From Clytia hemisphaerica (lineage: Eukaryota; Cnidaria; Hydrozoa; Leptothecata; Clytiidae): a DNA stretch of 64,000 bases. The translations under genes and the position numbers were made by a program. Under the pieces are notes generated by a model that was not told the DNA's origin, did not search any database, and was given only the letters and a program-made list of their open reading frames with translations. The first letter of the stretch is position 1, and each line of letters opens with the position of its first letter. The stretch spans positions 1,426,001 through 1,490,000 of the forward strand of contig CACVBU010000178.1 in the NCBI GenBank assembly GCA_902728285.1, read 5' to 3'. This document shows positions 18,085-44,380 of this stretch, in pieces.

Positions 18085-18090
18085 CCAGGA

Positions 18091-20231: not shown

Positions 20232-20410
20232 AGCTGCTCCGAATTTTTCTCTGAGAAATCTTACCGACTGCGCACATTGATGATTGCCAACGCATCTGTC
20301 TTCACAACGTTCTGTGATCGCATTACAAGGGTTGTTATTGCCATTGCTACACCATGAACCCAACTAGAAAAGGAAAAAGAAAGTTAAACTTATCAGTGCG
20401 AGAAAGTAAA

Positions 20411-20626: not shown

Positions 20627-20732
20627 TTAAATGTACAAATTTTCAAAAGTCCTTTCTATTCGCATATTTTAGCCAAATCTTTGTAAATGCAATCTTGGAC
20701 AAAAGGTTCCAAAAATCTAATGAACAGGCCAC

Positions 20733-20939
20733 CTTCTCACAAACCCAGTTGAATTTTTCAGACACTGGCTAAAACTCAATGGGGATTGATATTTCCATCT
20801 TTTTTATGGCTGGGGTATTTCTTTTGTTTTCAAGTCAGAAAATTCAGTGGGGATGGGAAAAATAGTAAATATTTTGCAGTGTTGATTCTTTTATTTGGTT
20901 ATATTCAGTTGGAACAGAAATTGGGTCTGTGAGAAGGGT
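20733..20939. repeat. MITE with CCTTCTCACAAACCCA ends, shortened copy
   Basis: The inverted ends are CCTTCTCACAAACCCA and TGGGTCTGTGAGAAGG. The other unit has a longer version at 43410-43711, so one of the two has changed internally. Confidence 0.65.
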
Positions 20940-21460
20940 GTGTATGGACAGTTTCCAAATAAGTTCATAAACCCATTGAAGGAGGAAATAAACTTTTGAA
21001 AAGTCTTCAGGCCTTTATTGGTCTGAGATTGAAAGTTCAATGACTTTTCACCTTACGGATTTTCAAGAAGACATTTTGGGGGAGATTACAGACCTTTTGT
21101 CCCCGATTGTGTGTCCCACCTATCGTCCATTTGTTGGGCGTGGTACACACTTTATCGGAAAGGATTAGTACCGGCCCAATTTTTTTCGTTTAATGGCATT
21201 CATTCAAGATTTAGGGGATGTTCCTACCGTTACTTTTTATTAAAAAGAACAACAAAAACTTACCGTTTTCTTGTCATAATCCGTTTCAAAATGGTTCCAT
21301 CCCTTTGCTGGTGAAAATAGAGAATTTCCTGACGAATTTCTTCGTGCAGAATTACCTAATAATTCACAAGTCTCATTTTGTCTCATGAAATTCACTGATT
21401 GACAGGTTGGATGTAACATACATTTCGTTAAACATTTTCGCAGTGAGATAAAGTCTAAAG

Positions 21461-22757
21461 AAACTATAATAAAAACATGTAAATACCTCAAAAATTAAAA
21501 AAAAGTCTGTTGGTCATTGTTTTCTGTTTTTTTTTTTCTTCAAAAAGGGGCTGGATCTAGTAGCATATATTGCTACCACCTTAAGCGAAGCCAAAAAATG
21601 AGTCTGCCAAATTACGCCGGGCCACTTATCAGCGCCATCCAGTCTATCAATAAGCTATAATTTCCCCCAGGCTAGGTATTATTTAGCCTGGATATCCAGG
21701 CTGTAAACTATTTCACAGTCTAAATTTTGGTATTTTATGTTCTGCTTTACAGCCTGGTCTCACTAGAGAGATTTGCGTTCTCCAGATGAGAATGCAGTCC
21801 GCTTGCTTGCGGTCACTTCGCCAAAGCCGTAAGGACCAATCTACACGGCGCGGAGCAATTCTAAAGCAAAAATAGGATAGTCCTCCACTTGCTAGCGAAG
21901 ATAAAGCTTTCTGTTACATGAAAACATGAAAAAGAAGAAAAACAGAAGCAAGTTCATTTTCAAAGAAAACATGGTTGGTCATGGTGGCACATGTAAACTT
22001 ATTTATGGACTTTTGTTTAAACTTTAGATTTTTTAAATAGCTTTAAATCTTGCAAGGCTCTTTTTTGTTAACTTTTGTTTGGCCTGCCCTGGGTTTGGCT
22101 TAGCCTAGTTAACTAAGCCCGTATTCACAAGAATATGACAAACGACTAATGGCAATATAGCGTTTTCGGCGCTTTAAATTTTTTTTTATATTTACGGATT
22201 TTAATTTTGCCCTGGAATACTGTTATTCAGTCACAACTTAACCATCAGATTTATCCAAGTGACTGAATTAAAACAGCTTAGATTTCTAGGCTAGGGTTGG
22301 CTAGGAAAGTTTTAGAAACATGGGTTTGCACTTTCATTCTCTAGGGAGACTAAGCTCTATATATAATTTTAGAACTTTGTATGTTGAGGTAAATTTTGTT
22401 TTTTCTAAAATTTTGAGCTTGGATATCCAGGCTAGGTATTATTAGACGGTAAGGATCGGCTTTTTACCTTCCCAAGGCTTTTTAAAATCCTCAGGGACAC
22501 TTAAAGTAAACGAACTACATTAGGTCTAAAAAGTAGAAGGTATAAAAAGTACACTCTTAGGGTGTAAAATTTGGAAAATCTGGCCATTTTTTGCCTGAAA
22601 AGGGTTAGAATGGTCAAAAATCTTCTGTGAGGGTCAACATCATCACAACAGTAATGACGTCATCACAAAATTTCATATTTACCGCTGACCAGTTTAAAAA
22701 GTATCCTCCACTAAAATAGAAATTAAAGTTGATCAAATAAAGGTTTATCTTACTATA
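21461..22757. other. Non-coding segment duplicated at 44917-46349
   Basis: The sequence tracks the other unit closely, apart from a MITE insertion there. It includes the 18 bp perfect palindrome AGCCTGGATATCCAGGCT (21685-21702; 45142-45159). No gene is seen. Confidence 0.6.
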
Positions 22758-22861
22758 ACTAGTCATAGCTTTCACTAAATGCCCCCACATAAAGATCATG
22801 TCGTGCACTTATAAAGCTTTAATGCTTTAAAGATTAAACATTAAAAAATAATCAGGAATAA

Positions 22862-22920
22862 TTGATTGATTTAATTATTGATTGATTGGTTGATTGATTG
22901 ATTGATTTATTGATTGATTG
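22862..22920. repeat. (TGAT)n microsatellite
   Basis: Imperfect TGATTGAT repeats run for about 60 bp. Confidence 0.9.
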
Positions 22921-24789
22921 AGGCGTTTGCTTGAAAAAAAAAAATATTCCATTATAAAAAAATACATACTTGAAAAATTCATGCAGCTTGATAACTTAAT
23001 AAAATTTAAGGAAAAGCTATATTTAAAAAGTTTATGGTACCATTATCTTACTAATTTTTACATCTCCTGTTTGTTTGTTTTTTCTCCTAGTTTCTTTCTT
23101 ATAACGATATATGTCATGATTACTATTCACTAAATAGACCTTTTCTAATAATGTCGCAGACATCTTAGATTGTAGGCAAAATATATGGACATACGCAGTG
23201 AATAAATCCACAAGGTAACCAATCAGAAATAGCTTGTTTTTTTTTCATTGGCTGCTATATTTCAACATTTCTCTGTTGCTACTTTGCCTAATAAACAATA
23301 GTCAAGAGGATACTGCGTATAAAATTAATCAAAAAGTTCTGCGCCATCTTAAGTTGGGTGAAATAGAAACTCACTTATCCTAGTTAAGGCCCGGGGTCCA
23401 CTAGCGTACGCTGTGACTGCACTTCTCAAGCAAAATCTTCTATGTTGTTGGTCAAAAGAAAAGTAAAGGAATGCCATTGTGGTTCATTCAGACGTACAGT
23501 CGAGAAAAGTTAAAATGCGCCTAAATTTCTTTTCAAGTGCATACTGGCATAGTCCTTTTTCATGATGCAATCTTTCCTCCAAGCTGATAGCAGCGCAGAC
23601 AATGAAGAGACGCGCCTTCAGGAAGCTAGACTTTTTGAGTTTATAGCTAGCGATATACTTTCCCTTTATGGTGTTTCTGTATGACTGTCTGTGTACCTAG
23701 TCTAACCACCGTTAAATGCCTTCGGGAAGGTCTCTCCTAACTTAGAAAGCCAGAATTTGGAGCTTATTTCACCAAACCACTGGAGCGTAAGTTATTTAGG
23801 CTATCACAACTGCATGAAAAAGTTTAACGTGCGCATGTAAAGTTTAACGAGTAAACAAACTTTTTTCAGGTTTTTGAAAAAGATTTACCACACTGAAAAG
23901 ACGTAGATGGTATTTAAAGCTCAAGAAGCCCTATAAACAATAAAGGTAGTTATCAATAAAATGACAGACAGAAAATAAATTAGAGTTTGAACAAAAATAT
24001 CAAATGTACATTTGAAAACTTAAGCAAATTTCTTTAAAGATTCTGGAAAAATAATTGAAATCATTGCTAAAGTGAACTTCTGACTAAATTACAGTAGTTA
24101 GTATTCAGTTTCAAAGACAAGAAACTAAATTTGACATACAAAACACTTTTTCTAGTCAATGAATCAGCTCATCATCATCATAACCAGTCTGCCATTTTGT
24201 TTGTTTTGATTTGCACAAGTAATATTGTAATTCGTGTTATATTAGAGCTAACTTTAGTTAGGTTAGGTTAATTTTAAGGAAGACAAATCAACGCCCGCAA
24301 TACACCCTTCCGCCATCATGCTACGCACTCTAGAAGCCATTGCTCAAATCCCAGTATCACTATTTATACGGGAGTGAAACCACGCTTAGTCTTTCTTATT
24401 CTTGTTTTTTTCAATTTGTTGGGATGACATGTGCAGCAGACCCAAGACCATGTTTTCAAGTGTCAAAGAAAAGTCTGGATAGTTAATTAAATAAATCAAG
24501 AACTCTCGATGGATGTTTGTTCTGCTGGTCCTTACCTTACATTCTATGATTGCTGTTGGCTACTCTACTGCTGAATTCCTTCAAAAACAATAAACATTGC
24601 TGACTGATCTGATGACAACCAATCCAAGAAGCTCCCATCCACACACGTTTGTTACTTACGTACTCGTTCTCCTCGAAGTTACAGTCCAAGATGCACCTGT
24701 CTTCACTCTCTTCCTTGGATGGTCTTTCAACAAAATGGAAAGTTAAGTGAACAGTCTTGTAAGTTCAAATTTCTATTCTCATCCTCCCC

Positions 24790-26230
24790 CCTCCATCCAA
24801 CAATCAAATCTTGGTATCTGTTATGGTCTACCTTGATGGTACGTGTACGTCCCGAGTTTGTTTTGCTGGTCATGGCACATGGGCAATTTTAGTCGTGGAA
24901 AGGAACCACATTAGGTTTGCGTACCCTTGCTTTGTTGGTTTCAAGTTGCAATTTTGTCTTTCGTTTCTCTGGGGGAGGCTTCTAACTATCCACCCATGTG
25001 CTCATATATCGGAAGTCGGGCAGTTGTTTTCACCCCATTTTTTTTCCCTTCCTTTTAATCCCTGGTAACGTCCAATGACGTTGATACATTAGCCATTTCA
25101 TTATTCTAGCCTACGAACCTTTGGAAGCCTCGGTTGATAGCCCTGGGTTTCACGTGTTATCATCTTTTACCTTTTTGTTTTTAACTGGGGTTTTTAACTA
25201 TCCACCCATGGGTTCATTTGTCAAGTCGGGCAGTTGTTTTTCACCCCATTAGTTCTCCCTTCTTTAATCCCTGTTGATATCCAATGGTGTTGGTTGATAC
25301 ACTGGTAATTATTTCAGCTTTATAAAATGCACCTTTGGGAAATCTACTGGTTGGATAGCCCTGGGTTTATGTGTTATGTTTCACCTTTTGTTTTTAACTG
25401 GGTTTCTCACTATCCATCCAAAAGTTAGGCACTACTTACTTTAAGTTAGGCATTTGTTTTTCACCCCTCTTTTTTCATCCTATCATTCCTGTTGACGTCC
25501 AATGACGTCATGATGCATAGTTAATTATTTAGCCTATGAACTTTTGGAGACCTACTGGTTGGATAGCCCTGGGTTTCTGTGTTGTCATGTTTTACTTTTG
25601 TTTTTAACTGGGTTTCTAACTATCCACCCAAGAGTTCACCTGTAAGTTGGACAGTTGTTTTTCACCCTTCTTTTCTTCATCCTATCACTCATGCCGACGT
25701 CCAATGACGTCATGATACATTGGTCATTACTTAGCCTATGAATTTTTGGGAACCTACTGATTAGATAGCCCTGGGTCTGTGCTGTCATGTTTACTTTTGT
25801 TTTAGTTGGGTTTCTAACTATCCACCCATGGGTTCACCTGTAAATTGGGGAGTTTTTTCTTTTTCTTTTTTTCACCTGGCCTTTTTTGTTTGTTCTCATT
25901 CTATTATGCCTGGCGACGTCTAATGACGTCATGATACGCTGGTAATAATCTTAGCCTATGATCCCATGCAAACCTACTGGTTGGGTAGCTCTTGGTCTTG
26001 TGTCGTCAAGTTTTATTTTGTCTTAACTGGGTTTCTTACTATCCTACCTTGGGTTCACATGTAAGTGGGACAGATATTTTTCTTTTCTTTCTTGTTTTCT
26101 CTTGCTATAATCCCTGGTGACGTCGAATGACGTCACGATTCAATGGTAATTATATTAGCAATGAACATCTGGGAATTTACTTGTTGAGATATGGGCTTTG
26201 TTTTTGTTTTTTGTTTTTTTTTACACCTAC
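24790..26230. repeat. Tandem array of ~210 bp units with TGACGTCA motifs
   Basis: The landmark ACTATCCACCCATG recurs near 24985, 25197, 25409, 25618, 25816 and 26036, a spacing of 198-220 bp. A second landmark (GACGTCCAATGACGTCATGA) recurs near 25066, 25275, 25492, 25694, 25914 and 26118. The copies are diverged. TGACGTCA is the CRE/ATF consensus, so each unit carries a potential bZIP site. The open frame at 24811-25068 is a by-product. Confidence 0.8.
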
Positions 26231-26439
26231 TCTCTATACAGCTGTAACATAAATTGGGTCTGGAGACTTCACAATAAGTAGATTGCTTTTTTTGGTTTCA
26301 ACTACCCTGGGACTTGGTTCCCTTTCTTTCCCTGAAACATACCCCACAGAGATACAGTGCTTAGATTAAAAGTCATATGTCACCATCCTCAAATAATCTT
26401 ATTATATTTAGCAGATCCCTTGCATTAAATGTCCAAACA

Positions 26440-27220
26440 ATTTTACCCTCAGATCTCGATTCAGAACATCCTACCTTGCTCATATGGCTGTCCTCCTTAC
26501 AGTCCTTCGACAGGCCGTCATCCCTACGGTCTTAGACACCTCCAATCATCCTCATTACAATCTAGACTAAAATCCATCATCCCTATCAGGACATGGGCTC
26601 AGGTTATTCTCACCAGGATATAGGCTCAGGCCATCTTCATCAAATACATAGGCTCAGGCTATTCTCATTATGACCTATAGGGAAAACTTTAAAGCATTAA
26701 GACTAAGACTGTCATCCTTTTAGTAAGAGTTAGCTTCCTAATGTGTAATGACTTCTTTTTGAGTTTGGCTGCTGATTTGGGGATGTATTGTGCGGGTAGT
26801 TTTGGGGACGTTTTGGGGGTGTGGGTCCCTTCGGAACCCCATACTCCTACCTAGTGGCTAGCTTATACAGTATCTACAGGCACATACATGTTAGGAATAA
26901 AGGCTGTCCTCCTTACAGTCCACGCTCATAAGGTTGAGGAGTAAAGGCTGTCCTCCTTACAGTCCACGCTCATAAGGTTAGGAGTAAAGGCTGTCCTCCT
27001 TACAGTCCACGCTCATATGGCTGTCCTCCTTACAGTCCACGCTCATTTGACTGTCCTCCTTACAGTCCACGCTCATAAGGTTCAGGAGTAAAGGCTGTCC
27101 TCCTTACAGCCCACGCTCATAAGGTTAGGAGTAAAGGCTGTCTTCCTTACAGTCCACGCTCATATGGCTGTCCTCCTTACAGTCCTTCGACAGGCCGTCA
27201 TCCTTACGGTCTTAGGCGCT
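26440..27220. repeat. Array of short hairpin units (CTGTCCTCCTTACAG)
   Basis: The word GGCTGTCCTCCTTACAGTCC occurs about nine times. The dense part is 26895-27215, where ~30 bp and ~44 bp units alternate, each ending in CACGCTCATA. The array is bracketed by two copies of a longer phrase (CAGTCCTTCGACAGGCCGTC near 26497 and 27180). Each unit can form a small CTGT..ACAG stem. Confidence 0.8.
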
Positions 27221-27714
27221 TAAGTTAGGCCTCATATTGCATGGTACATCCCCAACATCAGCCCCAAAGCGAACAATATTTCACATTTATTTCATTTCAC
27301 AGATTTCGGCAATTTCAATCATTTCAAGTTTACTATATTTACTCATTTCGACAAATACACATTTCGGAACCTAATACACTTTTGTCATTTATTTGCCTCC
27401 CCAAAATCTTCACCTGTTTACACTGTTAACAACATTTCGACCCTCTGACGTAAAAATTAATCATACACTGTTTTGATTTGCATTTATAACACTCGCTTCA
27501 GCTTTTCAAAGCTAAATCAAAACTAAAATTGTAATATGTAATAATGATGATACCATATAACGTAATATGAAAACTGAGCATTTACGGAAGAGACTAACTA
27601 CGGGGATGCTTGGGCGACAAAACAAACAAACGCAACAAAATTTCGAGATTCCAGTCCAATATCTATGCGTGAAACTATGAGTGCCTCCTCGTCGCTACGC
27701 TCCTGCGGGGGCAA

Positions 27715-29869
27715 TAAATGAGTTTATGAAAAATGTGTATAACGCAAGATGGTAGCTGAGCTGTTGTTCTCAAATTTTACCAGGGGGTTGATTCGAGTAT
27801 GAAAGAGGGATTTTGTGCAGTTTTAAGACAAATTTTTTTATTGTTTTTCGAAAATCAGTTGATGATACGTCGTGGTTTTAATTTTATGTTTAAAATTTCA
27901 TTTTTATCTATGATTGAGCGCGAAAATTAGCACTACCCTTCTGATAAAACCCCCGTCCAAAAAGGGATTTGACGTTCGAATCGAAGAAGCTCAAACAGTG
28001 ACTTTTTTTTTCGAATGCATTAATAATAACAATAATTAAATATTAAATCTAAATGTTACAATATATAAATTGCTTAAATTTTTGTTTTTTATTCATTTTA
28101 ATAATAATAATAATTAAACATCAAATCAAAACGTTACAATATTAAATTGCTTAAAATACGTAGAGCTAGGAAATATAATTCAAAGTTAAATAAAAAGTTG
28201 AAATCCCGACACAAACAAATATAGTGTAAACTGATTCGCAATCATGTCGAAATAGCACAACCTAGCGGGTCATGCAAGCCCCAAAAGCATAAGCAAAAAC
28301 AATGGAAAGTACGGTGAAAAAATTAAAACCAGAACTAGGAGGAGTACTAAAATATATGAAAAGCTAAGATTTCAAAATATTGTTATTTAACAAATCAATT
28401 TCATCTCATCAAAAGTCTATTTTTTTTTATGATTAAAATACAGTGATTTTTTAACGAAAATAATTCTGACGTCAATTATTCAAAACACCATGTGATTTAG
28501 ATTTTCGAACTTTAGAAGGCGTGGCACGTTCTACGAAAATGTTTATAAAAATTACTTTTTCAAATAGTCAATGCGCAGGTAAAAAACGGAGGTCATAACT
28601 TGTCATGCGTCGTTATCTTTCTTTAAGGCTCAGACTTTTGACGAAATGATGAGAATAAAAGTGATAAGAACAACGTTATCTACAATCATGGTTAAAATAT
28701 ATTGAGAATTCCGGCTATTTTAACGTTTTTCAAGTTTTAAAGTTCCGGCGAGAACGTCGATTTTGAGCTATCTCTTTAATTTAATCGAATATTTCAATTT
28801 GGGAGGGGTTGACAGACTTCCAGGCTATATTCTGAGCCTTATTGGACTATTTTTGAACTTTTGGATCCTCAGATCCTAAGGTCTTAACCTAAGTCTAGCG
28901 TTAAAACTCAGAGTTAAAAACTCTACCCTTTGAACCTACTTTAGAGCACTTACAAATCGATTGTAGTTTCAAAACTACTTGATGAATTTCTCTTTTTTCT
29001 CAAATATTATGACCTTGATTGTAAAAGATTCAAGATGTCAGAATTAACAGCAGTGCATGGTTTTTTCTTTTATAAGCATATTGTTTATAAGCATATGCAG
29101 GCTCAGTTTTTAGTTCGTAAACAATGGCTCTAGCTCTATATTCTTTGAGAGCAATAGAATGCTAAGCATAATGCGAGCCTGATATAGGGACAGACACTTG
29201 CTTATAAGAAAACATATAGCTGTGTAGGTAATTTATTTAGTACAGTCAACCCTATATAAATACGGACAGGTCTGTAAAATACCAACCTCCCAGTCAAGAT
29301 GCTTCCCCTCCTAAAAAGATAGAAAGATACTTGAAGGGTTAAGGCCTTTCCTGAATTTCGGAAGCAAGTCTAATTTAATTTGTTAGAATGATGAGAATAT
29401 TCGTTGAAAATGGCAAGCAAAACGAAAGTCAGCGCATATGGGCAAATTTAGTGGACATTGTGCAACTGATCTTTCTAATTTTTCTGGTTGTTTTACTTAA
29501 AGCGCTTACTGTAGAAAAGGCTTCACATGAGAAATCGGCAAAAACCAGCTTTTTCCTTTCAATGTCTACAATAGATAATAATTCCTTGAATTGACAAAAC
29601 AAATTTGCTCTCAAATCCCCTGCCGTTTTCGAGTGAATCGATTTTTAGTTATTCGTACCTCGATAACTGCTAAAATGCCAGAAATCGATATTTGATAAGT
29701 CAATTTATCAACCTATCTGATAGGTAAGAGTATTGTAACAGATGACAGGGTTTTTCGACATTTGATGTTCTTTTCAGAGGTAAATAAGGGCAATTCCATG
29801 CATAAGAATCGAAGAATCGTTCCTACAATCTTCAATATCTTGAGGAACTGAAAATGAGAGAGCACTTTC
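27715..29869. other. Non-coding segment duplicated at 46350-48050 and 52829-53441
   Basis: The sequence runs parallel to the other unit, which is interrupted by a LINE at the site corresponding to about 29256. It contains a two-copy ~80 bp AT-rich minisatellite at 28013-28155 (landmark GTTACAATATATAAATTGC). No gene is seen. Confidence 0.6.
28013..28155. repeat. ~80 bp AT-rich minisatellite, two copies
   Basis: The landmark GTTACAATAT recurs about 79 bp apart with TAATAATAATAATTAAA spacers. The other unit has four copies at 46658-46960, an array-length difference between the duplicates. Confidence 0.8.
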
Positions 29870-32800
29870 TCACTCAGAACGACCGTAAATCAAAATCTCT
29901 GCAATATTCATATATCCGTAAGGTCCTTGAGTAACAGGTTGATTTGCATACAACTCGTCAGCATATTTTTGACAAAGCATTGTTTTCCGGCCCCCTACGA
30001 TATGCCCAGTATTTCCAAACTTGGTTTTGATGCTTTGTCCATCGATATACAGAACAGTGAAAAAATCAATGAAATCATTCCGAACTCCGTGTTCTGTACC
30101 AATCAAATTAGCTCGATTGACAAGTATAACATACTCAATAAAAACACGTTGATTGAATGTTGCTTTGATCCAATGAGGTGCGTACTGTTCTCTGTTGGTA
30201 CAGGAATGTGTGTCTTCTAGCCCATCGAATGCAAGTTCAGCTGGTTGATTGCCAGATTTATGATCAGACGATTGTGTAGCCGTCTGGACTAAAGACTGTA
30301 ATTGCTCTGTAATAGAATTTTTATAAACATTTTATCATTGCTTGTTTTAAGAAAAAAATTGTAGCAAATTGTTATGTCAGGCTCCAAAATTCGTCAAATT
30401 TTTGTCTGACAAATTAAATTTTTACTAAAATGTTGATTTGCGAAAGGGACCGTTAATTGGAAATCTAGGGGTGTAGCCTTTATCCACAGCGGAACCAGGG
30501 GAAGCATTTAATGGGAAGTTGCCAGAATTGTGTGTAGAAGATCCTTGGATATCTTTGATGTACAATTGAAGAGATTCTGAAAGAATTTGAATTAGATGTT
30601 TAAGACAACACAACTAAAAATTTATCAAATAACCATCTTAGCCGTTTCGTGAAACACGGATTTATCTTCGATGCAAAGTTGTGTAACTTAACTAACTTTC
30701 CTTGACTAAATAACCCCTGAAATTCTTCAAAATTGCTCAAAATAAGGCAAAATAGAGCAGATTTACGCTGTCATTCGCCAAAATTAGTTCCTACAAAAAT
30801 TAAAAAAATTCACTATTCGCTAGACTTGTAAACAAGTCTGTTATTTACCGTGCACAACAAAATTTAGGAGTCGGGTACTGGCTAGGTATAATCGGAAAAA
30901 CGTTCACACGGGAATTAGTGCGCGAGAGAGAAGGAAAATAACATTTGAGAATATCGTTCTAGATACGGTTTCCCGATTTTACCACTCTAGTAAGATTTTC
31001 CGGTGTGATGTTTTTCATTCAACGACTATACTAGTCTAACTATTCGCCAAAATAAGTTCCCGCCAAAATTAAAAATTTTAGGACATTTGCTGCCCGCCAA
31101 AAAAAAGTTCCCTAAACAAATTTGTTTCCTCCAAATTTTCTATTCCATTAAATAAAATTCCGCTGTGAAAATATCACTTATTTCTGTGGTGCATCGCTAA
31201 GATAATATTTAATCGTATAATTTACATGATTCTTGGGCTCTGCTCATTTTTTGGATGCAGGCTTTAGTGTTGTGATTCTAAACTGTTCTTGAGACGCAAC
31301 CGGGGGTTGGGGCTACTTAGGCAAAACGGGAGCCATAAGGGTCCCTTTTTCACACCCTCGAAAGTTCCTCAAAGGGTTACAAAACCATTAAAAAGCAAAT
31401 TGAGTCTCTGTAAGGGGGTCCAAAATTACGAGAACAAAAATTGACTCTCTTAAATGGTCATAAATTCTTGAAATTTGGACTAAAATTTGAAAACTTTTGA
31501 TGAAATTTTGGGGAAATAGTCTCTTTAGGGAGGGCAAAAACGTCAGAAAATTTACAAAATTTTCGAAATTCATTCAAATCCTAGTACCATCCCTCTCCCC
31601 GGAGACGCATGAAATTATCCGAAAAGGTTCTCGAAAATACTTTGTTTCTTACCACCATGCTGGACACATTGATAATTGCCAACGCATCTGTCTTCACAAC
31701 GTTCTGTGATCATATTACAAGGGTTGTTATTGCCATTGCTACACCATCGACCCAACTAGATGAAAAGATTTGATTGTATTTTATGAAGTTTTCAAGTATC
31801 CTGTCACATAGTCACCCTTTTTTTACTATAGATGGTGCCTTCATCCTTCTCGCCTCAGCTATGGAGGATATGTACCACTAATTCTAGGGTACCTGTTGTG
31901 TATTTTCAAAATACCAGTGGATACCCCTTAAAACCTACAAAATTATTTTTCTCGAATAATTTTTTATGCGAAATAGTCCATTTGGTATCTCAAATTTTTA
32001 ACAGTGATTCACTGCAAAGTTACTTATGTTACAATTAAATCATTGGTACCTAAATATTTTCAAAACTGTACGTTAAAATCAAAATACACTATTACTCCTT
32101 AAAACCTACAAACATCGACTCCTTGCTCACAACTTACTTAAACTGTGAAATTTCAATTCAGGTGCTGAACCGTGATTCAATTGATCAAATACTTGCTAAA
32201 AATCCATTCCCAAAACAATATTTGTATTTTTCAGGATTTCATGCCCATAATACAATTGACTTAATATTCTAATGTTTTTTTAAATCGCCATCAAATTTTG
32301 GTATGCAATATTAGCCAAATTCTGGAGCCGCTCGCCGCGCTGCAGTTGATGTGCGTGTCGGGACAAAAATCGAGGCGGAAGCTATTTTGTTTACATTTTT
32401 GGCTGGGGAAGCACTGCAAAATAGTGCTTTTTGAGTAGATTTGGTGATTCTTGGGAAGAAAGAAGAAGAATACTACTTGGAACCAACATCAAATGTATTG
32501 GAATAGACTTCTATCATATATTGGAATAAAAGACAATACTTTTTGAACATAATGAATGTGTGAAACTTGCTTTTTTGTTTACAAACTTCACTCAAGTAGT
32601 TTCGTCGATTTCGCTGCTTTCGAAAGCTGTTGATGGAGACTACTGACTTGCTGAAGTAACTTTATATTGGTGCAAACAATGACTATAATAGCTTCACAAA
32701 CATTCCCTATCATGGAATTCAGCTGAGAAAGATTTTTTCGATCGCATTGAACAGTTTTGATATGAGTGAGATATCCAAGATATATGCTCATTCAAACATG

Positions 32801-35800
32801 GTTTCACCCATCCCTTTAGATAACAAAAATTTCATGATTCATTTTATTCATCTCAAAAATGGCTGAAGAGACACTAACGGTCAGATTGGATTCATCACTG
32901 AATGCGCTGAGGGATAAACTTTACTTTAACTCTCAAAATTTTGTCGTTGAATCTTCCCAGTCGTCAAAGACCGAGTTATAATGTTATAAACGTGACTGAT
33001 TTTGAGGTATGTTTTACGTGCAGGTTTTGATTGGATCCAGGACAAGAAAAGGATAAGCAAATCCAAAGAAAGTGCCCAAAAATTCTGAAATTTTGAAAGT
33101 ACCGCAAAAAATTGAAAGTACCTTATGACATTGACATATGATTGTGTATATCATATAATGGATTGTTATTGTTTTGGATATCCGGCATACCGTCAACGGC
33201 TCTAACTTGGGACGAGTGTCATATCATGGGATGGTTGACTTTCTGAACTGTTTTTTCACTGTTAAATCTCTGTTGATAACAAGTTTGTTTTCTTTGATTT
33301 GGGACTATGTTAATTTAAAATGACTTTTAATAGGTAGAGGTTGGGTAAAATGATTGCCGAATTGCTGTCCCATGTTTTGTCAGACTGTCCCAAGTTAGAG
33401 CCCTTGACGGTACAAATCCACTTTGTAGTCATTGCATTTTCAGGCAAAGTTATGATGCCTAAAGCGCTGTCTGAAATTATTTTTTTATTTGGATTATTAG
33501 TTATCAGTGCTCAATTCTGTTTGGTGGAAAAGCTTCCAACTTCCCAACAGAAAAAGTACTGTCACAAAGGATTATTATTTAAATATATAAAATTTGTACA
33601 AAATTTGCTTCAGCCAAATATTTTTATGCTTGAAAATAGTTTATAAATTCTATTCTGTTGAATAATTTTGTGGCGGTAAAGATAAGAAAAACATAACATG
33701 AATGAAGTCAACTCAAAATACTCTCAAACACTCAAATATGTTTATGTATAATTTTACTTTTTACCTATTTCCCAACCCAAAATCTACCTATCATACTCAA
33801 CTGAGGCCCAAAGTGAGCAGAAAAGATTTTCTACGAAAAGTAATAGTCCAAATAAGGCATATACAGTACAAAAAGTTCATAGGCTATAGGCCAAAGACTG
33901 AGCCCGGGATAATTGAAAATTCCCCCAACTATGAGTGATTATAAACGTTTCATGTTTGGAAGAGGCTTTTTCTTGAAATCCAATGAAAGTTCCAGCATTT
34001 ATCCAATCTCTTTTTCCTATTTTTTGCTGGTAAAAAGAAGGGGGGAGTCTCACTGTTTTCTTACCAAATATCTGCAAATGCGGCCTAAAAACGAAAGCGA
34101 AAGTAATTTTTCTCCCTACAAGCTGCGCACGGCAGCGCAGCGAGCGGCTCCAGAATTTGGCTAATGACCATGTTTTGAGAAAGTCGATTTTCATATTATG
34201 TTGGTCACTGCCATAAATGAGATTTAAAATAGAACTTTGTGGGCCTTACGATTTCTTTGGGGTCTAACCATGAAGAAGAAAATGACTTTTTCGTACCTAC
34301 CCTAAGTATAGGTACCTTAAAAGTATAGATTTTATGACCTTAAATTTATTTTTGTAATCTCTAGGTCCGAAAAACTTAATTTTTTGAAGGAACTTTTGAT
34401 CAAATTTTGAATAACGAATTTTACGACCCTTTGCGATAATTGAAATTTTTTAAATTAGGTATTTTATGAAAGTACCTATACTCTTATCTCCCAAATAGAC
34501 AGGGGGTCCGAATAAGCAGGGGGTAGGAAAATCTTCTAAATTGTAACAAGCGGGGGGATGGAATAAGAGTAGGGGGGGCTAATTTGAAGACAGAATTTTT
34601 TTTAACTGATATCAATTTCAACAACAAAAAAGAAACTTTAGCAAATGAACGTGTAAAATAAGAACCAATACTAACAAAAAGGAAAATTTTAACAAGTTTA
34701 AGATCTATCTACACTGTAATAAAATATTGAATTATTCGAATTTAATTAGCGGGGGTCTTAATAAGAGCGGGGGATGGATTTTTTTTCCTTAAAAATTAGC
34801 GGAGGGCGTCTATTTTGGAGACAATAGTATGTCAGAGGTTGTAAAAAGTGAATTTTATACCATTTAAATTAAGCTTGGTTGTTAAGAGAGCCCGAAATCC
34901 AACTTTGTGAGTTTTAAGGCGAGTTTTAAGCGAGTATCCACTGGTATTAAAAACAAACATTTTTAGGATGAAAAGCAATTTAGTCCGTCATTTTCACCAA
35001 AAATATTTTAAAAAATATTTTTAAAAAATTGCTGCTTCGCCAATTAAAGTTCTTCCAAATTTCAATGGTTTTTGACGGAAATACCCCGGTTTTAGCCAGT
35101 AGTGGCAAATTTAAACTAGACAAAAGCTGTATAAAATTTGCCACTACTGGCAAAAACCGGGGTCTTTCCGTAGAAAACATTACGTCATGAATATCATGAA
35201 TAGTTTTTAAATACACGCTTTTTTTTTAATAAGAATACACTTTATAAGAATGTCCATGATGAAAATGGCCAAAAAACTAAGAATATGCTAAGAATATCAC
35301 CATTATGGAATTTTGCTACTAAAGCTAAGAATGCCATTTTAAGAGCATTTTCAATTATAAATTATCAATTATCCCCAAGTTAGGCCCAAATTAGGCTCAC
35401 TGCTTTTACAAAAGTGCCATTTTAATGCTTGAGACGTATGTACTAAATGTTAAATCTATTATGAATTAGGATCCTAACCTAAGAATGTGCTGTAAGAATA
35501 TTTTAGGATGATTTTCCCAAAAACGTTAAGAATATCCATGATGAAATGGATTTACACCATTCTTATAAAAAAAAAAGCGTGTAGACTTACCGTTTTTTCG
35601 TCATAGTCCGTTTCAAAATGGATCCATCCAGTTTGTGGTACAGACAAAACATTCCCTGTTAAATTACTTTGTAAAGAATTACCTAATAACTCACAAGTTT
35701 CATTTTGTCTCTTGAAATTCACTGATTGGCATCTCAGATGCCACATACATTTTGTCAAACATTTTCGCAGTGAGATAAAGTCTAAAGTTTTCAAAATATT

Positions 35801-35953
35801 TCCAATTAAGCGTTGATGGTATGATATTTTTGAAAACTTTGCGTCATAATTATTGCATTCTGGCAATCTCAAAATATGTGACAAAGAAATATTTGTCCAA
35901 AGAAGTAGAATTAACGTTCCTCCTTTCAGCATCGTGAAAGAAGAATAAATCAT
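29870..35953 (-). CDS. Gene A2: chimeric secreted PAN - EGF-like - FA58C protein (3 exons)
   Basis: Exons are 35953-35591, 31755-31653 and 30306-29870. Phases are 0 and 1; the joined length of 903 nt gives 300 residues with no stop. Exons 1 and 2 are near-identical to A1: signal segment GGTLILLLWTNISLSH, PAN domain, and the EGF-like WCS..NPCN..RCEDRC..QC. Exon 3 does not match A1. It matches the last exon of gene D at 53878-53442 and is an FA58C-like domain (LAFDGLEDTHSC, HWIKATF, FIEYVILVNR, MNIAEILIYGR). The old A-type exon 3 survives as a broken fragment at 30576-30425 inside intron 2. The gene therefore reads as a fusion made at the tandem-duplication junction. Intron 1 is ~3.8 kb and swollen by transposons. 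Whether the fused transcript is made is not shown here. Confidence 0.75.
30425..30576 (-). pseudogene. Broken A-type FA58C exon at the duplication junction
   Basis: The acceptor (TTCTTTCAG) and first ~24 codons (SLQLYIKDIQGSSTHNSGNF) match exon 3 of A1. After PLNA the sequence switches to unrelated sequence (SPGSAVDKGYTPRFP) and stops. If spliced in it would end the protein early, so it could act as an alternative, truncating exon of A2. The same junction sequence recurs at 54007-54102. Confidence 0.75.
30821..31038. repeat. 218 bp insertion with 9 bp target duplication
   Basis: The insert starts TAGACTTGTA and ends TACTAGTCTA, giving 6 bp inverted tips. ACTATTCGC is duplicated at 30812-30820 and 31039-31047, and A1 has the uninterrupted ACTATTCGCC site near 7912. 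A 9 bp duplication fits Mutator-like elements. Confidence 0.8.
31653..31755 (-). CDS. EGF-like exon of A2
   Basis: This 103 nt exon of A2 is the same length and phase as in A1. It lies between ctag and gtaag splice sites and encodes LGRWCSNGNNNPCN..RCEDRC..QC. Confidence 0.75.
32859..32981 (+). CDS. Small 40-residue ORF inside the A2-intron transposon, unknown
   Basis: The ATG has a good animal context (CAAAAATGG). The peptide begins MAEETLTVRLDSSLNALRD, is amphipathic and ends VESSQSSKTEL before TAA. No homology could be named. It may be a first exon of a gene captured by the transposon, or chance. Confidence 0.25.
   Translation: MAEETLTVRLDSSLNALRDKLYFNSQNFVVESSQSSKTEL
33188..33414. repeat. 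227 bp inverted-repeat element nested in the A2-intron transposon
   Basis: The ends TACCGTCAACGGCTCTAACT and the inverted AGTTAGAGCCCTTGACGGTA match over about 26 bp, with one difference. It sits inside the 32318-34166 element. Confidence 0.65.
34478..34832. repeat. MITE with TATCTCCCAAATAGAC ends, A2 only
   Basis: The left end ACTCTTATCTCCCAAATAGAC-type and right end GTCTATTTTGGAGACAATAG are inverted. A1 reads straight through (GTACACTTATAAGAGGTTG near 9528). The interior repeats ATAAGAGCGGGGG words. Confidence 0.65.
35066..35172. repeat. Hairpin MITE, ~40 bp arms
   Basis: The arms contain ACCCCGGTTTTAGCCAGTAG and CTACTGGCAAAAACCGGGGT. They lie close together and fold into a long hairpin in A2 intron 1. 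Confidence 0.7.
35211..35583. repeat. MITE family 'ACACGC..ATAAGAA', copy d
   Basis: The element starts ACACGCTTTTTTTTTAATAA and ends TTCTTATAAAAAAAAAAG-CGTGT. It abuts the donor site of A2 exon 1. Confidence 0.7.
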
Positions 35954-35988
35954 ACTGTCAAAAAAAGGTGATTACATAGAGTTTTTCA

Positions 35989-36278
35989 TACACGTTTTTT
36001 TTTATAAGAACATCCAAATTTTTTGAATCCTTCGGCGGATGTTCTTATATACTAACATGTTCTTATTTTCACCATTTTGATGGTATTTTCTCTCCATTTT
36101 CATTAGAAATCGGGTCCACAAAGTCCATAAAGTATTAAAATGTTCTTAACTTGTTCTCAATTTTTTGGGTCCATAAAGTCCACAAAGCATTAAAATGTTC
36201 TTAACTTGTTCTCAATTTTTTGGCCATCGAAGGCTAATGTTCTTATATAAAGTTTATTCTCATGAAGAAAACGTGTAT
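35989..36278. repeat. MITE family 'ACACGC..ATAAGAA', copy e, next to the A2 start codon
   Basis: It starts with TACACGTTTTTTTTTATAAG about 36 bp upstream of the A2 ATG and ends AAAACGTGTA. It holds a small internal direct repeat (TTCTTAACTTGTTCTCAATT twice). Confidence 0.7.
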
Positions 36279-36885
36279 TAATTTTCCAAATTCTATATTT
36301 AAATTTTTTGAATGTTAACATCAACCGTATTGAAACCAAATTCATCCACATTCAATATGCTGAATTCAATCTTTTTAAACATTAATTTTTTAGTAGCCTG
36401 TCAAAACATTCAAGAAAACACAGGTTTCGAATTAAACTACAATCGTGAACATAACTATAACTACTGTCCGACTACTCATTTCCCCATGCTGAGTCCCCCC
36501 TCCCCCACTTTCAATGCTGGAGGGATGAAATTTGCAAGTTCCACCGACTCCGCATCAACACTGAAGATGGGGGGAGGGGGTGGACAAATAGTTATGTCCA
36601 GGATTGTCTAAAAAAAATAAAAATTTGAGCAGAGGTTCCCCTATGCATAATCAGAAATTTTTTTTGAAAAGGAGCCATGTTGTTTCCTCGAGGCCATGTG
36701 CGAATTCAAAATATCCCAAAATGCAATTTCGGCGGGAATCGAATCCGTTTTTTCCGATTTTCCCGAATTTCCCGATTTTCCCCAATTTTGAGTTTTTCCT
36801 GGTTAAAAGACCCTCGGCATTTCTCAAAAAAGCCTCTGGAGAATTTTTTTTCAAATTACAATTGCCTTATAAATCTGAACAAGGT

Positions 36886-37190
36886 ATAACTATAAGACAC
36901 CCCTGTCTCAGTGCCCCGGTGGAACCTTTTCCCTCAGTGGGGATGAAAATTTCTATCGAAATCCCAATGGGGATAGAAAATCTATTGTTTCCAGCTCAAA
37001 AATTCCAGTGGGGATGGTTTTGGAGTCCAATTTTTTCCAATCAATTTTCAATGGGGATAGAATCATAGAGCAAATTCCCAGTGCGGTTGAAAATGTAGGG
37101 TATTTTTTCCACCGGGGACGATTTTTTGGCCTATTTTTCCACCGGGGCGGGGGGTCCACCGGGTCTGCGACACAGGGGTGTTATAAGTAT
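36886..37190. repeat. MITE with ACACCCCTGT ends inside the Rep-like element
   Basis: The left TATAAGACACCCCTGTCTCA and the right inverted ACACAGGGGTGTTATAAG bound ~300 bp containing several CAGTGGGGAT phrases. The overlapping open frames on both strands are repeat-derived. Confidence 0.65.
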
Positions 37191-37381
37191 CTCTAAAGTA
37201 TATAAAATATAGTATATTTACATTTTATAAGCATATATATATTTACAAGTATAGTCTGTTTGTTTTTTTCCTTTTTCAGATTAGAAATAAATAAGTAAAC
37301 AGTAAACAAAAGAATGGGCCTAAAAAGACAAAACCCGAGAATGAACCAATTAGCAAACCAAAAGTCAACGATCAGAGAAGG

Positions 37382-38802
37382 GTATTTCTTATAACGTATA
37401 TCAAAGCAGACATGAGTACATTCTCAACCCGTGAAAGTTTTTCCGAGCAAATAGTCAAAGCCTTTGGAGAAAGATTTATTGTTGAGTGGGCTTGCTGTAT
37501 CGAGGATCATCCCACAACAGGTGGTAAGCACTTCCACATGGTCATCAGCTTCAACAGGTCTCTTCGATTTGCGCCTGTAAAGAAATATTTTTTTTTAAAC
37601 TTTCAAAGTCTCGATTCATTTTAAGATCAAAAGCTTAGGCTATGTCGCGGCCTACAGGTACATTTCTAAAACAAGCCTAGTAACGAGGTACTTCATAGTG
37701 AAGGACACTCACCGGTGACACGGATCAGAACACCCCGAAAACCTCAAAGGCTATGAGCAAGTTCAGTCAGAACTCGGCCAGCAAGAAGGGAGGAGTTAAA
37801 AAGAAGTCAAAGGCATTGAAACGACCTAAGTTTATTGATGATTCTACTATTGAAAGTGGAAAAGAACAGGGGGAAAGTAATTCAAGTCTTTCAGACTCAT
37901 TTGATTTGCTCGAGATTGAAGATGATGACAAGGTTTCAGACTCAGGCCAGGACAGCGAAGAAGAGAAGGAGGACTTTTTTGCACCAGACAAGCTTAAGCC
38001 TTATGAGGTATCCGAATTTCTAGTAAAGGAAGGCATAAGGTCAAGAACAGTCCTTCTGTATATTGCTAATGTACGCGCTAAGAATGGTGAGCGAGACCTT
38101 AAAGCGTGGGTTGTAGGCCACTCCACAAAATTTATGAATGAATTAATATCGACAACATGGGAAATGGAAGAGGCCGGTGCAATTCTTAAGCGAAGAAAGA
38201 AAACGCGCATGGAAATTCTTTATGGTGCTTTTCAAGGACCATGCGCTGAAACTTGTATCCAACACGAATGGCTGAGATGTGCAGTCAGCATCTTACAGTC
38301 AAATTCCGTAAAAGTTGATGTTTTTGCTGCTGCAATGCGTAATGCGCTTAAAAATGGAAGGGGCAAGGGAAACAATGTTTTGATTGTTGGTCCATCAACT
38401 TGCGGTAAGTCGTTCTTGCTCACCCCTTTGCAATTGGTTTACGACGCGGTTGCGAACCTGTCAAACACACAATATGCGTGGGTTAGCTTGGAACTCAAAG
38501 AAGTTGCCCTTTTAAATGATTTCAGATGGTCTGCGGAGTGTATTGATTAGAAGGACTTTTTACTTTTATTGGAGGAAGACACCGTGAATTTACCCCGCCA
38601 GAAAAATACATTTGCAACAGACCTCACCATTGAAAGGTCAAATTCCGTACCTTTTTTTTCTACAAGTATCCAACCGTTTGAATATGTCGGCAAAGGAAAC
38701 TCAAAAGATCCTGCAGAGACTGCCATGATGTCTTTACTTTCACCAAAAAAGTTGAGAATCCCAGAATTGTTTTATCCTGTCGTCGCTGCTTTGTGGATTT
38801 AA
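37382..38802 (+). pseudogene. Rep-like protein: HUH endonuclease plus SF3 helicase, decayed
   Basis: The first part (frame through 37412-37624) shows a motif-I-like ITYIKAD, with the in-frame codons starting upstream of the ATG, and GKHFHMV as the His-hydrophobic-His metal motif. A motif-III-like AAYRYISK (Tyr nucleophile and Lys) is seen near 37645-37675 in another frame. The second part (37753-38802) has an acidic linker, then GPSTCGKSFLL (Walker A), LLNDFRW (Walker-B-like) and a C-terminal region. Breaks: two frame changes between 37600 and 37753, a stop near 37716 and an in-frame TAG at 38548-38550. HUH-SF3 proteins start rolling-circle or hairpin replication of single-stranded DNA in CRESS viruses, parvoviruses and related mobile elements. 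Cellular repeat versus endogenous viral origin is not decided. Confidence 0.7.
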
Positions 38803-39901
38803 TCTTCAAAGGTCAGGAACTTGTTTCTTAAACAACGTTTAAACACTGTTTGTATTAATTTTTTAAACCGAAACACGATATGATTTTTAGATTATAACTT
38901 TGCGTTAATTTTTTTTATTATTGTTTTGATATGCGAAACACGATATAATTTTTGGATTATAACTTGGCGTTAACTTTTTTGTTCTCGTTTTGATATGCGA
39001 AACAAGATATAATTTTTGGATTATAACTTCACTTTAACTTTTTTGTTATTGTTTTGAAGCTAACCCTGCCTAGTGTTTAGAGTTGAAGTTAGCTTTTAAA
39101 AGTATCTTTTGGATCAGATTTTCAAGATGGGGGGAGGGGGTGGACAAATAGTTATGTCCAGGATTGTACTCACGCGAAAAATATCAAGTCACCACAACAC
39201 CGGGTTGAGAAAATTTTGGAATTTCAGGCCCATACAGGGTCCTTTTTTTTCAAAAAAACGAGTCCCACGTAGGGTCCATTTTTACACACCCCCGTCGGCC
39301 GGCAAGGGTAGTACCCCCTCCCTCAGGACCACAGCCCACAGCGAGCGAAAAGCGTAGATGCCTTATCAAATGTTGATGGATGTTCTTATTTTTCTTTTTA
39401 TTCATTCAAAAAATGTTTTTCTATTTATTTTGGATTCAACAAAAGAAATAAGATTGGGTGTTTGCCTTATCATTTTTATGTTTTAAGCTGTTAAAGTAAC
39501 CCGGTATGCCAAAATAGAGCTAAAATTGATTGTTACACCGGTCGCACGGCTCCTTTTTGTTTTGTTTACTTGATTTTTTTTTCGTGCAAATTACATGGGA
39601 TCAAAGCAAAAGCTTCGCAAAAATCTAATTAGAAATCTCTTGTATTGTGTTAGTTTAGATTTTCTCACGAAAAGCGCATAATAAAATTTCAACTGGAATC
39701 ATAATTCCTAAATGTCAGCACGAGCTACCATGTCCCGTGAACAAATAATGATATTCATTTATTCGATGACGTCACTCATCATTTCCAAAGTGAGCAAAAA
39801 CGGAAAATTTCCTTTGTTCTTGTAAATAACTATTGCATTATAACAAAAGCTTAAGAAAAGGCTTCCTGAGTTTAAAATGCTTATTTTATCCTAAATATTC
39901 A

Positions 39902-40738
39902 ATAAACTAGCAATAACTTTCATTAAGGTGCAACCGCAGCAAAACGAACATAGAGTTGAATTTGCGTTCAAAAAGAATGATCTTAGCCCTACAGTAATTT
40001 TTGTTAAGAGTGAACTCTCATCTGAGACAAAATTCTTTCAAATGCTAACAAATGTGTCAAGGGAGTGATTTGCAGTCTACTTAGAGTGACACCCGTGCCT
40101 TGTCTTACAAATTTTTTATAAGAACAATTTCATAATCTCATACGAGGCTGAAATTTGGCCAAAACCTATGAACAAATTAAGAAGAATCTGAACCTCAGAT
40201 TTCAGAAATTACTGAGAAGTACATGTTTCCATTTTAATTAATATTGACATTTAAGGCTGAAAAACTCATATAAATTTAAGAGCAGCCCAGCCAGAATCAT
40301 ATGACTTACTGGTTTTTCCTATAAAAAGCGTATATATCTGAAGATACTGCTCTTCATATGTTATTTTACTAATGTACACGTTTAGCAACATAACTGTTCG
40401 AATACTTTGAGTAGAGTAATATTTTTAACCTATGAAGAAGCGCTTAGTAACTACTAGTGGTATAAAAAGGGAATTTCCCAGAAAAGAGAATTTCCTTAGA
40501 TTCATTCAACTCTCCAGGGATAAGAAAAAGACAAACTGACATTTCAAAATGAGTAATCAGATCAAAATAACTCCGGAAAAGTCTTTTTGATGATGATAAA
40601 ACAATAGAGATAAGAATGCTACCGTTAAGCGGAACTAAAATACTGAAAACGCGCAAAATTATGAGATGTTTGCCCAACTTCCTTATGCGTGAAGCTATGA
40701 ATACCATCCTCAGAAGCTTTAGGCTTCCTCCGGTGGCA
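39902..40738. mobile_element. ~835 bp block present only in unit 2
   Basis: Unit 1 reads AATAAATTACGG at 16885 where unit 2 has this block. Its ends resemble those of the 4.96 kb unit-1-only block (ACTAGCAATAACTTTCAT; GCGTGAAGCTATGAATACC and a terminal GGTGGCAATTA). A short hairpin (AGAAGCTTTAGGCTTC) lies just inside the right end. No gene is seen. Confidence 0.55.
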
Positions 40739-41004
40739 ATTACGGTTTAAACGATATATTTTCCATAAAAATCAAATTTGAACTGGACATCATATTTGTA
40801 AAAAATATTTAGGTGTCAAAAATTATTTCTTTTTGAAGCTAAATAAAAGTTCGGAATTTACATTTACATATTACATGCATATACATATTTATATTTAAAT
40901 TTCATATCAAAAACTTTATTATTTCCAGGAGTTATTAACATAAATTTCACCAATGAACAGAAAAGCCCCCCCCCTCCCTCGTACGAATAGGGTTAAACGA
41001 TATA

Positions 41005-41420
41005 CTTAAGACGAACAAACTTTCGCGAGCAGAAACTTTCGCGAGGTTGAAAAATCGTGAAATTCACGACATTTACTTTCGCGAATTTAACGGAAAAATA
41101 TTTTTCGCGAATCAAGACGTAAAATTGAGAATTTTCGCATGAAAAAATGGCTTAGAAGACAAATACTTCTTGGATTGGCTCGAAACATTCCGTCCTTTGA
41201 CTTATTAGTATTTTAGCAGGTTAAAAAGTGCCATAAAAGTTACATTTTATTCAAAGTTTGAAGTTTTCCAGATTTTCTTTTTTGTCAAGAATTTTTCGCG
41301 AGCATAAACTTTCGCGAATGGCCCTTCTTAGAATTTCTAAAGACATTTGCTTTCGCGAAGAGGGCCAAAATTCAAGAAAATCGCGAAAGTTTCTACTCGC
41401 AAAAGTTTGTACGCCTAAAG
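41005..41420. repeat. TTTCGCGA-rich MITE, unit 2 only
   Basis: The ~39 bp inverted ends share ACAAACTTT-GCGAG and GAAACTTTCGCG. CTTTCGCGA words recur inside. The other unit has the empty site ACGATATATTTAAC near 18308. Confidence 0.75.
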
Positions 41421-41773
41421 TATTTAACATGAAAAATAAATTTGTACAGGGAAATGTGTCAATTTTTATGACACCTTAGTATCAACAATTTCATCGTGCT
41501 CAAGGTGTAAAAGTTTTTAGGTTTCAAAAATTAACTTATTTTGAAGCTAAATAAAAGTTAGGAATTTGCAGAAAATTTTATGTCAAAAGCTCTATTATTT
41601 CAGGAGCTTTTAGCATCAGTTTAACCTCCAAACAGGAAAAGCCCCCCCCCCTCCTTAGCTTAGCACGAATAGGGTTAATAATAATAAATCTTGTCGTAAG
41701 TCTTAAATATCCAGGTTTTCACGAAAAGAAGTTGCCGTGAATTTGTCGCAGCAAATGTTATTATGGAGTTTAT

Positions 41774-41957
41774 TTCCGTAGCCATAAATTGCCGTGCGTT
41801 TATTTCTTTGTTCACTTTATCCCACTAAACTCGATCCAATCCTTTTTTGACACATTCTTCTACTGTCTATAGATCCGAAAAAAGGACTGGGACGGTTCTA
41901 GTGGGATAAAGCGGACAAAAAAATGCCTGCGCGCGTCAATTGGCGGCTACGGTCGAA
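41774..41957. repeat. MITE with CCGTAGCC..AATTG ends, unit 2 copy
   Basis: This is orthologous to 18683-18870, placed at the same distance from the FA58C exon of B2. It therefore predates the duplication. Confidence 0.7.
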
Positions 41958-41967
41958 AATGAGAATG

Positions 41968-44380
41968 TTATATAATTCTGCCATGAATCCATATTTCAGC
42001 AAGATTCATTGTCTGGTGTGGAGGATTTTGAGTTGCTATAATTTCATCTGCAAATTTCATACAAGAGATTGTCGTGCGAATACCTAAATCTCCCGTGTTT
42101 CCAAAAGTTGTTATAAGATTTTGATTATTGTTTGTATACAAAATGGTCTTGAGATCAACATTATCGCAACGGTTTTCGTGTACTGTATTAACGGTGTCTT
42201 GTCGGTTCACAAAGATGATGTAATTGACGAAGACACGGCTTTTAAAGACAGCTTTAATCCAATTTGGTTCAGTACCTAAGTTATGTGTACATGCCCATGT
42301 ATCTTCGTTGCCATCAAATGCAAGAGATGCATAATATGTACCGTATAGTGTTGAAATTGATGAGTGATTCACGTGTTCATGAAGAGATTGTGCTGAAAGA
42401 GTTGAGTTCGAATTATACAGTTTACCCTCGCTAGTTCGAACTTAAACAGGGAATCTTATCAGTTGGAATTACAGAGAGATTCGGATTATAGAAAGTATAT
42501 TAGGAAAGCGGTTTTTCCGCGTCGGGGACTGGAAGTAAGTTCGAATTGTAGAAAGATTCGATTTAAGGAATTTCGATTAAGCAAGAGTTTACAGTAGGTC
42601 ATTATTAGATTACATGAGGGAGAGGTGCTTAGATGATGTGTGCAAGTCGGATCCCTTTTTCACACTCGAAAATCCGTCAAAGAGGTACAAATATCGTTGA
42701 AAACACTTGAGTAAGGGTTCCAAAATTCCAAAATTCCAAATTGGACTCTCTTAAGGGTAATTCTTAAAATTTGGACTAAAAATCTTGGCTGAAATTTTGT
42801 GGAAATAGCCCCCCAAAACTCTCTCTAACGGTGGCAAAAACGTCTGAAAAATACCAAAATTTTCGAAATTCAGTCTCTCTAAGGGTCGGTTTTCGAACTT
42901 TAGTTCTGATATGGTCCTATCATCTCGCAAACCTAATACCCCCTCCCCCGGGAGTTAACTCTGTTTTGACCTTCCACTATTCGATACGCTCCATCAATTT
43001 AGCCTCAGAACTTTAAACAAATGAGTTTTTTCTAAAAATCCTAGAGAGTCTTATCTCATTTTGAGCCTTCAGCCTCCCCACTTTTACGGTGGCTCCGCCG
43101 GCCCTGTAGCTGCTCCGAATTTTTCTCTGAGAAATCTTACCGACTGCGACACATTGATAATTGCCAACGCATCTGTCTTCACAACGTTCTGTGATTGCAT
43201 TACAAGGGTTGTTATTTCCATTACTGCACCATGAACCCAACTAGAAAAGGAAAAAGAAAGTAAAACTTATCAATGCGAGCAAGTGAATATTCATTAGGGC
43301 TACGTTTCTTAAATACTCAACTTTTCACCAGACCTTTCTATTCGCAAATTTAGGCAAATCTTTTTTAATGCAATCCTGGACAAAAAGTTCCAAAAATCTT
43401 TGAACACGCTACCTTCTCACAAACCCAGTAGAATTTTTCACCCACTGGGGATAAAAATAACGGGTGAAAACTCAATGGGGATTTATCTCTTTAATGGCTG
43501 GGTATTTCGATTCTTTTGTTTTCAAGTCAGAAAATTCAGTGTGGATGGGAAAAAAAGTTAATATTTTGCAGTTTTGATTCGTTTATTTGGGTTTTTTCAG
43601 TTGGAACGAAAATTGGAGAATAAATTTTGGCCAATTTTTCCAGTGGAAAAGGGGTCCCAGTGGAAAAGGGGTCCCAGTGGAAAAGGGATCCCAGTGGGTC
43701 TGTGAGAACGATGTGTATGGACAGCTTCCAAATAAGCTCATGAACCCATTGAAGGGAGGAAATAAACTTTTGAAAAGTCTTCAGGCCTTTATTGGTTTGA
43801 GATTGAAAGTTCAATGAGTTTTCACCTTACGGATTTTCAAGAAGACATTTTGGGGGAGATTACAGACCTTTTTTGTCCCCGATTGTTTGCCCCACCTATC
43901 GTCCATTTGTTGGGCGTGGTACACACTTTATCGGAAAGGATTAGTACCGGCCCAATTTTTTTCGTTTAATGGCGTTCATTCAAGATTTAGGGGATTTTCT
44001 TACCGTAACTTGTTATTAAAAAAAGAACAACAAAAGCTCACCGTTTTCTTGTCATAATCCGTTTCAAAATGGTTCCATCCATTTGCTGGTGAAAATAGAG
44101 AATTTCCTGACGAATTTCTTCGTGCAGAATTACCTAATAATTCACAAGTCTCATTTTGTCTCATGAAATTCACTGATTGACAGGTTGGATGTAACATACA
44201 TTTCGTTAAACATTTTCGCAGTGAGATAAAATCTAAAGTTTTGAGAATATCACCCAATAACCGTTGATGATACGTTATCTTTGAAAATTCAGCGTCATAT
44301 TTACCGCATTCTGGTAACTTTAGAATGTTAGCCTTTACAAAAATGAGAATAACGAATGAGAAAAATGCTACAAGCTTCAT
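41968..44380 (-). CDS. Gene B2: secreted PAN - EGF-like - FA58C protein (3 exons)
   Basis: Exons are 44380-44042, 43240-43141 and 42392-41968. Phases are 0 and 1; the joined length of 864 nt gives 287 residues without a stop. Exon 1 begins at ATG with a clean signal peptide (MKLVAFFSFVILIFVKA), then a PAN domain (LPECGKYDAEF, CLTKCMLHPTC, ETCELLG). Exon 2 is the EGF-like WCSNGNNNPCN..RCEDRC..QC. Exon 3 is FA58C-like (LAFDGNEDTWAC, NWIKAVF, FVNRQD, MNLAEIWIHGR). RCDNVDLK fits the R-x-D-x4-K part of the F-type lectin fucose motif, but the usual upstream His is not at the expected distance. B2 is the intact partner of pseudogene B1. Likely extracellular; ligand unknown. Confidence 0.8.
43410..43711. 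repeat. MITE with CCTTCTCACAAACCCA ends, long copy
   Basis: Inverted ends CCTTCTCACAAACCCAG and CTGGGTCTGTGAGAA-type bound ~300 bp with repeated CCAGTGGAAAAGGG words. It corresponds to the shorter 20733-20939. Confidence 0.65.

Follow-up and report, generated by a model that had tools for sequence, protein, structure and literature searches.

A candidate chimeric gene with a PAN-type head and an FA58C-type tail at the seam of a tandem duplication in Clytia hemisphaerica

Quetzalcoatl and other chimeric genes of Drosophila melanogaster are reportedly discussed as quick sources of new functions. In Drosophila yakuba, 76 chimeric genes have been described among 1116 tandem duplications (PMC5460883), and the gene that we describe here, A2, resembles those chimeras, as excerpts of that report present them, in that the 5′ end of one gene meets the 3′ end of another at a duplication seam with the parents kept (PMC5460883). 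Set against the same excerpts, A2 differs from the D. yakuba chimeras in belonging to a cnidarian and in joining paralogues with matching intron phases, and the duplication differs from the segregating D. yakuba duplications in that its units have diverged by 3–15% (PMC5460883). With the mechanism well documented in Drosophila, A2 is ordinary in kind, if an unusually clean example. Among the matches listed in our literature search, judged by title and the start of the abstract, none concerned this locus (we do not claim that it is absent from print), and a search for the corresponding database entry, A0A7M5WQY1, found no mention.

The window, by which we mean the whole 64-kb stretch of DNA that was analysed, comes from Clytia hemisphaerica, a leptothecate hydrozoan: in a protein database search the A2 translation retrieved P0001 (UniRef A0A7M5WQY1) at 97% query cover and 100% identity. 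Its minus strand carries the genes of one family, of which A1, A2, B2 and D are intact with three exons each, and in all four the introns have GT/AG ends and follow phase 0 and then phase 1. A PAN-type head is common to A1, A2 and B2, and a Cys-rich linker joins the head to an FA58C-type tail. A1 (7308..10300, minus strand; exons 10300-9938, 8719-8617 and 7726-7308) encodes 294 residues and D (53442..60238, minus strand; exons 60238-59963, 59069-58976 and 53878-53442) encodes 268, each intact with one terminal stop. D has a WSC-like head (60238-59963) and a linker (59069-58976) of its own, and its translation equals the NCBI-sourced Clytia protein P0003 letter for letter. The B gene is present as an intact copy, B2 (41968..44380, minus strand; exons 44380-44042, 43240-43141 and 42392-41968; 287 residues), in the second duplication unit and as a decayed copy, B1 (18883..21470, minus strand), in the first. 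B1 lacks the start of its exon 1, where 677 bp of B2's unit have no counterpart in B1's unit, and its exon 2 is one base shorter than that of B2. The surviving part of B1 exon 1 is almost identical to B2, although B1 is decayed and B2 intact.

A2 comprises 903 nt in three minus-strand exons with one terminal stop, encoding 300 residues. Exon 1 (35591..35953), which carries a hydrophobic start, judged by eye, and the PAN head, is identical to A1 exon 1 (10300-9938) at 359 of 363 nt, and exon 2 (31653..31755), the Cys-rich linker, is identical to A1 exon 2 at 98 of 103 nt, for a total of 9 differences in 466 nt (4 in exon 1 and 5 in exon 2). Exon 3 (29870..30306), which opens at an AG acceptor in phase 1 and encodes the FA58C-type tail, matches D exon 3 (53878-53442) at 400 of 437 nt (37 differ) and 127 of 145 residues, whereas the tails of A2 and A1 are only 41% identical. 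An earlier note, made from the sequence alone, had described exons 1-2 as near-copies of A1 and exon 3 as a near-copy of the last exon of D, joined in phase in a 903-nt frame without internal stop; each of these descriptions is borne out, the join being phase-matched under the phases that all four genes share. The letters thus confirm A2 as a predicted intact chimera of A1 exons 1-2 and a D-type exon 3, standing beside both intact parents. The database protein P0001, identical to the chimera over residues 2-292, has A2 exon 1, exon 2 and the D-type tail.

The same note had derived A2 from a tandem duplication, and a self-comparison of the 64-kb window agrees, with collinear units of ~23 kb whose ends fall in A1 exon 3 on the left and D intron 2 on the right. 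Unit 1 covers 7652..30526 (22,875 bp) and unit 2 covers 30502..54102 (23,601 bp, its own insertions included). Of 26 alignment rows, 21 lie on the diagonal, forming 21 collinear blocks with 3 to 15% substitutions each, and the other five (starting at 12247, 16914, 18400, 20426 and 28020) were judged by eye to be off-diagonal or overlapping repeats and left out. The D-derived tract in the A2 unit includes D intron and 613 nt past the stop. A further 4,957 bp (22758-27714) is found in unit 1 only.

At the seam (30502..30526) lie 25 bp that are common to A1 exon 3 (7652-7676) and D intron 2 (54078-54102), where A1 and D are identical and the A2 copy has one private substitution. No exact match between A1 exon 3 and D intron 2 is longer, and in 300 dinucleotide shuffles of the intron the maximum was 15, so that the match lies beyond chance. 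On the D side the stretch may be what is left of a third unit, the homology used in recombination or a later copy from the seam; beyond 54102 in the window, blastn found no A-gene block (E<=1e-10, >100 bits). The seam falls within a broken A-type exon (30425..30576, minus strand), as the note had proposed, but only part of that exon is A-derived: 30502-30576 differs from A1 at 2 of 75 nt, while 30425-30501 comes from the D intron and reads openly up to a stop. The acceptor of this broken exon is intact and, if used, would add 50 codons and then a stop.

Mobile elements are visible in and around the units. A LINE-like element of 4,775 bp (48054-52828, minus strand) occurs in unit 2 only, ~600 nt past the D stop, and its frames match RVT_1 (E=4.3e-31) and an endonuclease (E=2.5e-12). 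Within 54102-58976, D intron 2 holds at least two plus-strand reverse-transcriptase frames, 55733-56248 (E=9.8e-21) and 56539-58359 (E=4.7e-29), and the second looks by eye to be nested in the first. Two plus-strand ORFs at 37295-38550, inside unit 2, appear by eye to be Rep-like with a helicase part; the first has no profile match, and the second weakly matches a papillomavirus-type E1 helicase below the cut-off (E=0.001, 18.7 bits against 26.5), so this is perhaps a mobile element or an old viral relic. An ORF at 14346-15176 (minus strand) looks by eye like a tyrosine recombinase, with an integrase N-terminal match below the cut-off (E=0.0033, 18.1 bits against 22.3). A run of 427 Ns at 12563-12989, upstream of A1, marks either a gap in the assembly or masked sequence.

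Separate trees of exons 1-2 and of exon 3, as the earlier note had suggested, were discordant. The head tree (6 rows) pairs A1 with A2 at a support of 96/99, and the tail tree (10 rows) groups A2 with D and P0006 at 86/91; a clade of A1 and A2 tails, the grouping that the note's reading could not accommodate, was rejected (p-AU 0.00478). Less simply, D's partner in the best tail tree is the long-branched P0006 (62/68) and not A2, a grouping of A2 with D not being rejected (p-AU 0.297). The tail branch of A2 is 0.095 long against 0.022 for D. P0006 combines a D linker with a D-side tail and has no head, and P0009 combines a PAN head with a tail on the A/B side; because both are unmixed combinations, A2 is the derived mixture.

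Among known proteins, A2 resembles the secreted proteins that combine PAN/Apple with a discoidin fold (FA58C, CBM32, F-lectin), in that PAN_1 scores above the Pfam cut-off in P0001 (30.3 bits against 21.4) and its tail matches CBM32 and F-lectin structures, and it departs from them in that F5_F8_type_C (FA58C) in P0001 falls below the cut-off (E=2.3e-05, 25 bits against 28.2). The predicted structure gives the tail a discoidin-type beta-sandwich fold. By Foldseek against PDB it resembles CBM32 domains, F-lectins and a chitosan-binding module, the best match being 4zy9_A (E=4.5e-07) and the F-lectin 3cqo_A matching at E=1.3e-06; the mean pLDDT of the model is low (61.3), though higher in the tail. 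A sequence search of PDB returned a single match, at E=0.75. The "PAN/EGF head" of the earlier note is confirmed in its PAN part but not in its EGF part, since Pfam listed no EGF family in A1 at E<=1 and only five cysteines, against six for EGF, occur in the linker of A2 and in that of D. The head of D is at most WSC-like: WSC matches D exon 1 alone below the cut-off (E=0.00093, 19.8 bits against 27.8) and is absent from the listing for the whole of P0003 at E<=0.01. From its domains and fold, A2 most likely encodes a lectin-like protein that is secreted. The note's further claim that the head had gained a new FA58C domain is overstated, since the A1 head already had an FA58C-type tail, a paralogue 41% identical to the new one; the swap therefore exchanged one paralogous tail for another, and on the predicted fold it would amount to a different binding face on one head and not to a new kind of domain.

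Taken together, A2 very probably arose as a working frame when a ~23-kb tandem duplication seamed the front of A1 to the last exon of D. One breakpoint lies inside the last exon of A1 and the other inside D intron 2, such that the duplication set a copy of A1's upstream DNA and exons 1-2 before a second copy of the last exon of D, leaving both parents, A1 and D, intact. Because the family shares introns of phases 0 and 1, joining exon 2 of A2 with the D-type exon keeps frame, and this splice would yield, in agreement with the database protein model, a 300-residue PAN-linker-FA58C protein in which, as its domains and fold suggest, the head and promoter of A1 are joined to the ligand-binding tail of D. 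For this product to be made, the leftover A-type acceptor at 30576 would have to be skipped.

That acceptor bears on a reading that we consider unlikely but by no means negligible, in which the chimeric DNA is real and A2 itself is either a pseudogene or a source mostly of truncated protein via 30576, its tail drifting unconstrained. The acceptor and the 20 nt upstream are identical to those of A1, the remnant behind it is open up to its stop, and a crude matrix (human sites from recall, ranking known acceptors poorly) scores it at 5.2 against 1.9 for the D-type acceptor, with six other intron AGs above both; it could thus divert splicing to a truncated protein. This reading also draws on dN/dS, which shows no clear deficit relative to 1 (0.83 in exon 1, 1.02 in exon 2 and 0.51 in exon 3, Fisher p=0.10 for exon 3), the exon 3 value being also what one neutral plus one constrained branch would be expected to give. 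It draws, too, on the 17 differing tail residues, of which 8 polarise to A2 and 1 to D, leaving 8 undecided (p=0.039; first and last tail residues omitted), the A2-side changes including a Trp retained in D and all three outgroups. The tail of A2 has changed faster than that of D, which relaxed constraint and a change of role fit equally well. Against loss of function stand the 903-nt frame, whose survival is improbable under neutral decay (P 0.004, 0.044, 0.028 and 0.081 under four settings), the decay that B1 did undergo in the same unit, and the D-type tail of the database model P0001.

The reality of the DNA join can be questioned as well, for two diverged haplotypes might have been placed in tandem by the assembly and misjoined at the 25-bp stretch. 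The 3 to 15% divergence across the 21 blocks and the unit-specific insertions are what diverged haplotypes might show, the join sits on a stretch common to both sides, and the run of Ns is nearby. We nevertheless regard such an artefact as very unlikely, given a seam copy whose substitution is in neither A1 nor D, a B gene that has decayed in unit 1 but not in unit 2, and a separate database protein model, perhaps from another assembly or from RNA, with the chimeric exon chain. Gene conversion or retrocopying in place of tandem duplication is scarcely credible as the source of the D-type tail, with a copied tract that includes D intron and the 613 nt past the stop and that forms part of a collinear 23-kb repeat enclosing gene B. 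A1 and A2 are nonetheless unusually alike in exon 1, where 1 of ~78 synonymous sites differs against 31 of 341 sites of the 5′ flank at 10340-10684 (p=0.016), which suggests some homogenisation within the array.

Exon 1 also poses a puzzle of its own in a second database protein, P0002, which equals A1 over 285 compared residues except for two in exon 1 (N52 and L73), both of them A2's, and which carries A1-type exons 2-3. P0001 and P0002 both begin MK-GG where the window reads MLKGG. A separate first exon for the MK start was sought and rejected, since neither strand of the window has an ATGAARG with GT or GC after it; the start may come from a trans-spliced leader, and we lean towards a strain difference in exon 1. 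(A Fisher test on the flank, 126/713, was dropped because its low side took in 9740-9919, where A1 and A2 are unlike.) P0002 would reflect either exon 1 conversion plus a strain difference, splicing from A2 to A1, or a prediction artefact, and gene prediction can join neighbouring tandem copies, according to excerpts of one report (PMC10236652). The splicing option would imply a shared head with a choice of tail, in which A2 transcripts proceed either to the D-type tail (P0001) or to A1 exons 2-3, 26,871 nt off (P0002). We consider this improbable; if true, such a locus would let a single head carry either of two distinct ligand-binding tails.

Having very probably originated in the tandem duplication, A2 lies in a single 64-kb window together with both intact parents, the seam, the remnant of the cut exon and a control in gene B, which was duplicated whole and of which one copy decayed. 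Because the host is a laboratory jellyfish, the choice of acceptor and the expression of the chimera relative to its parents are directly testable. For the family, matching intron phases would have allowed a working frame to arise directly from the duplication.
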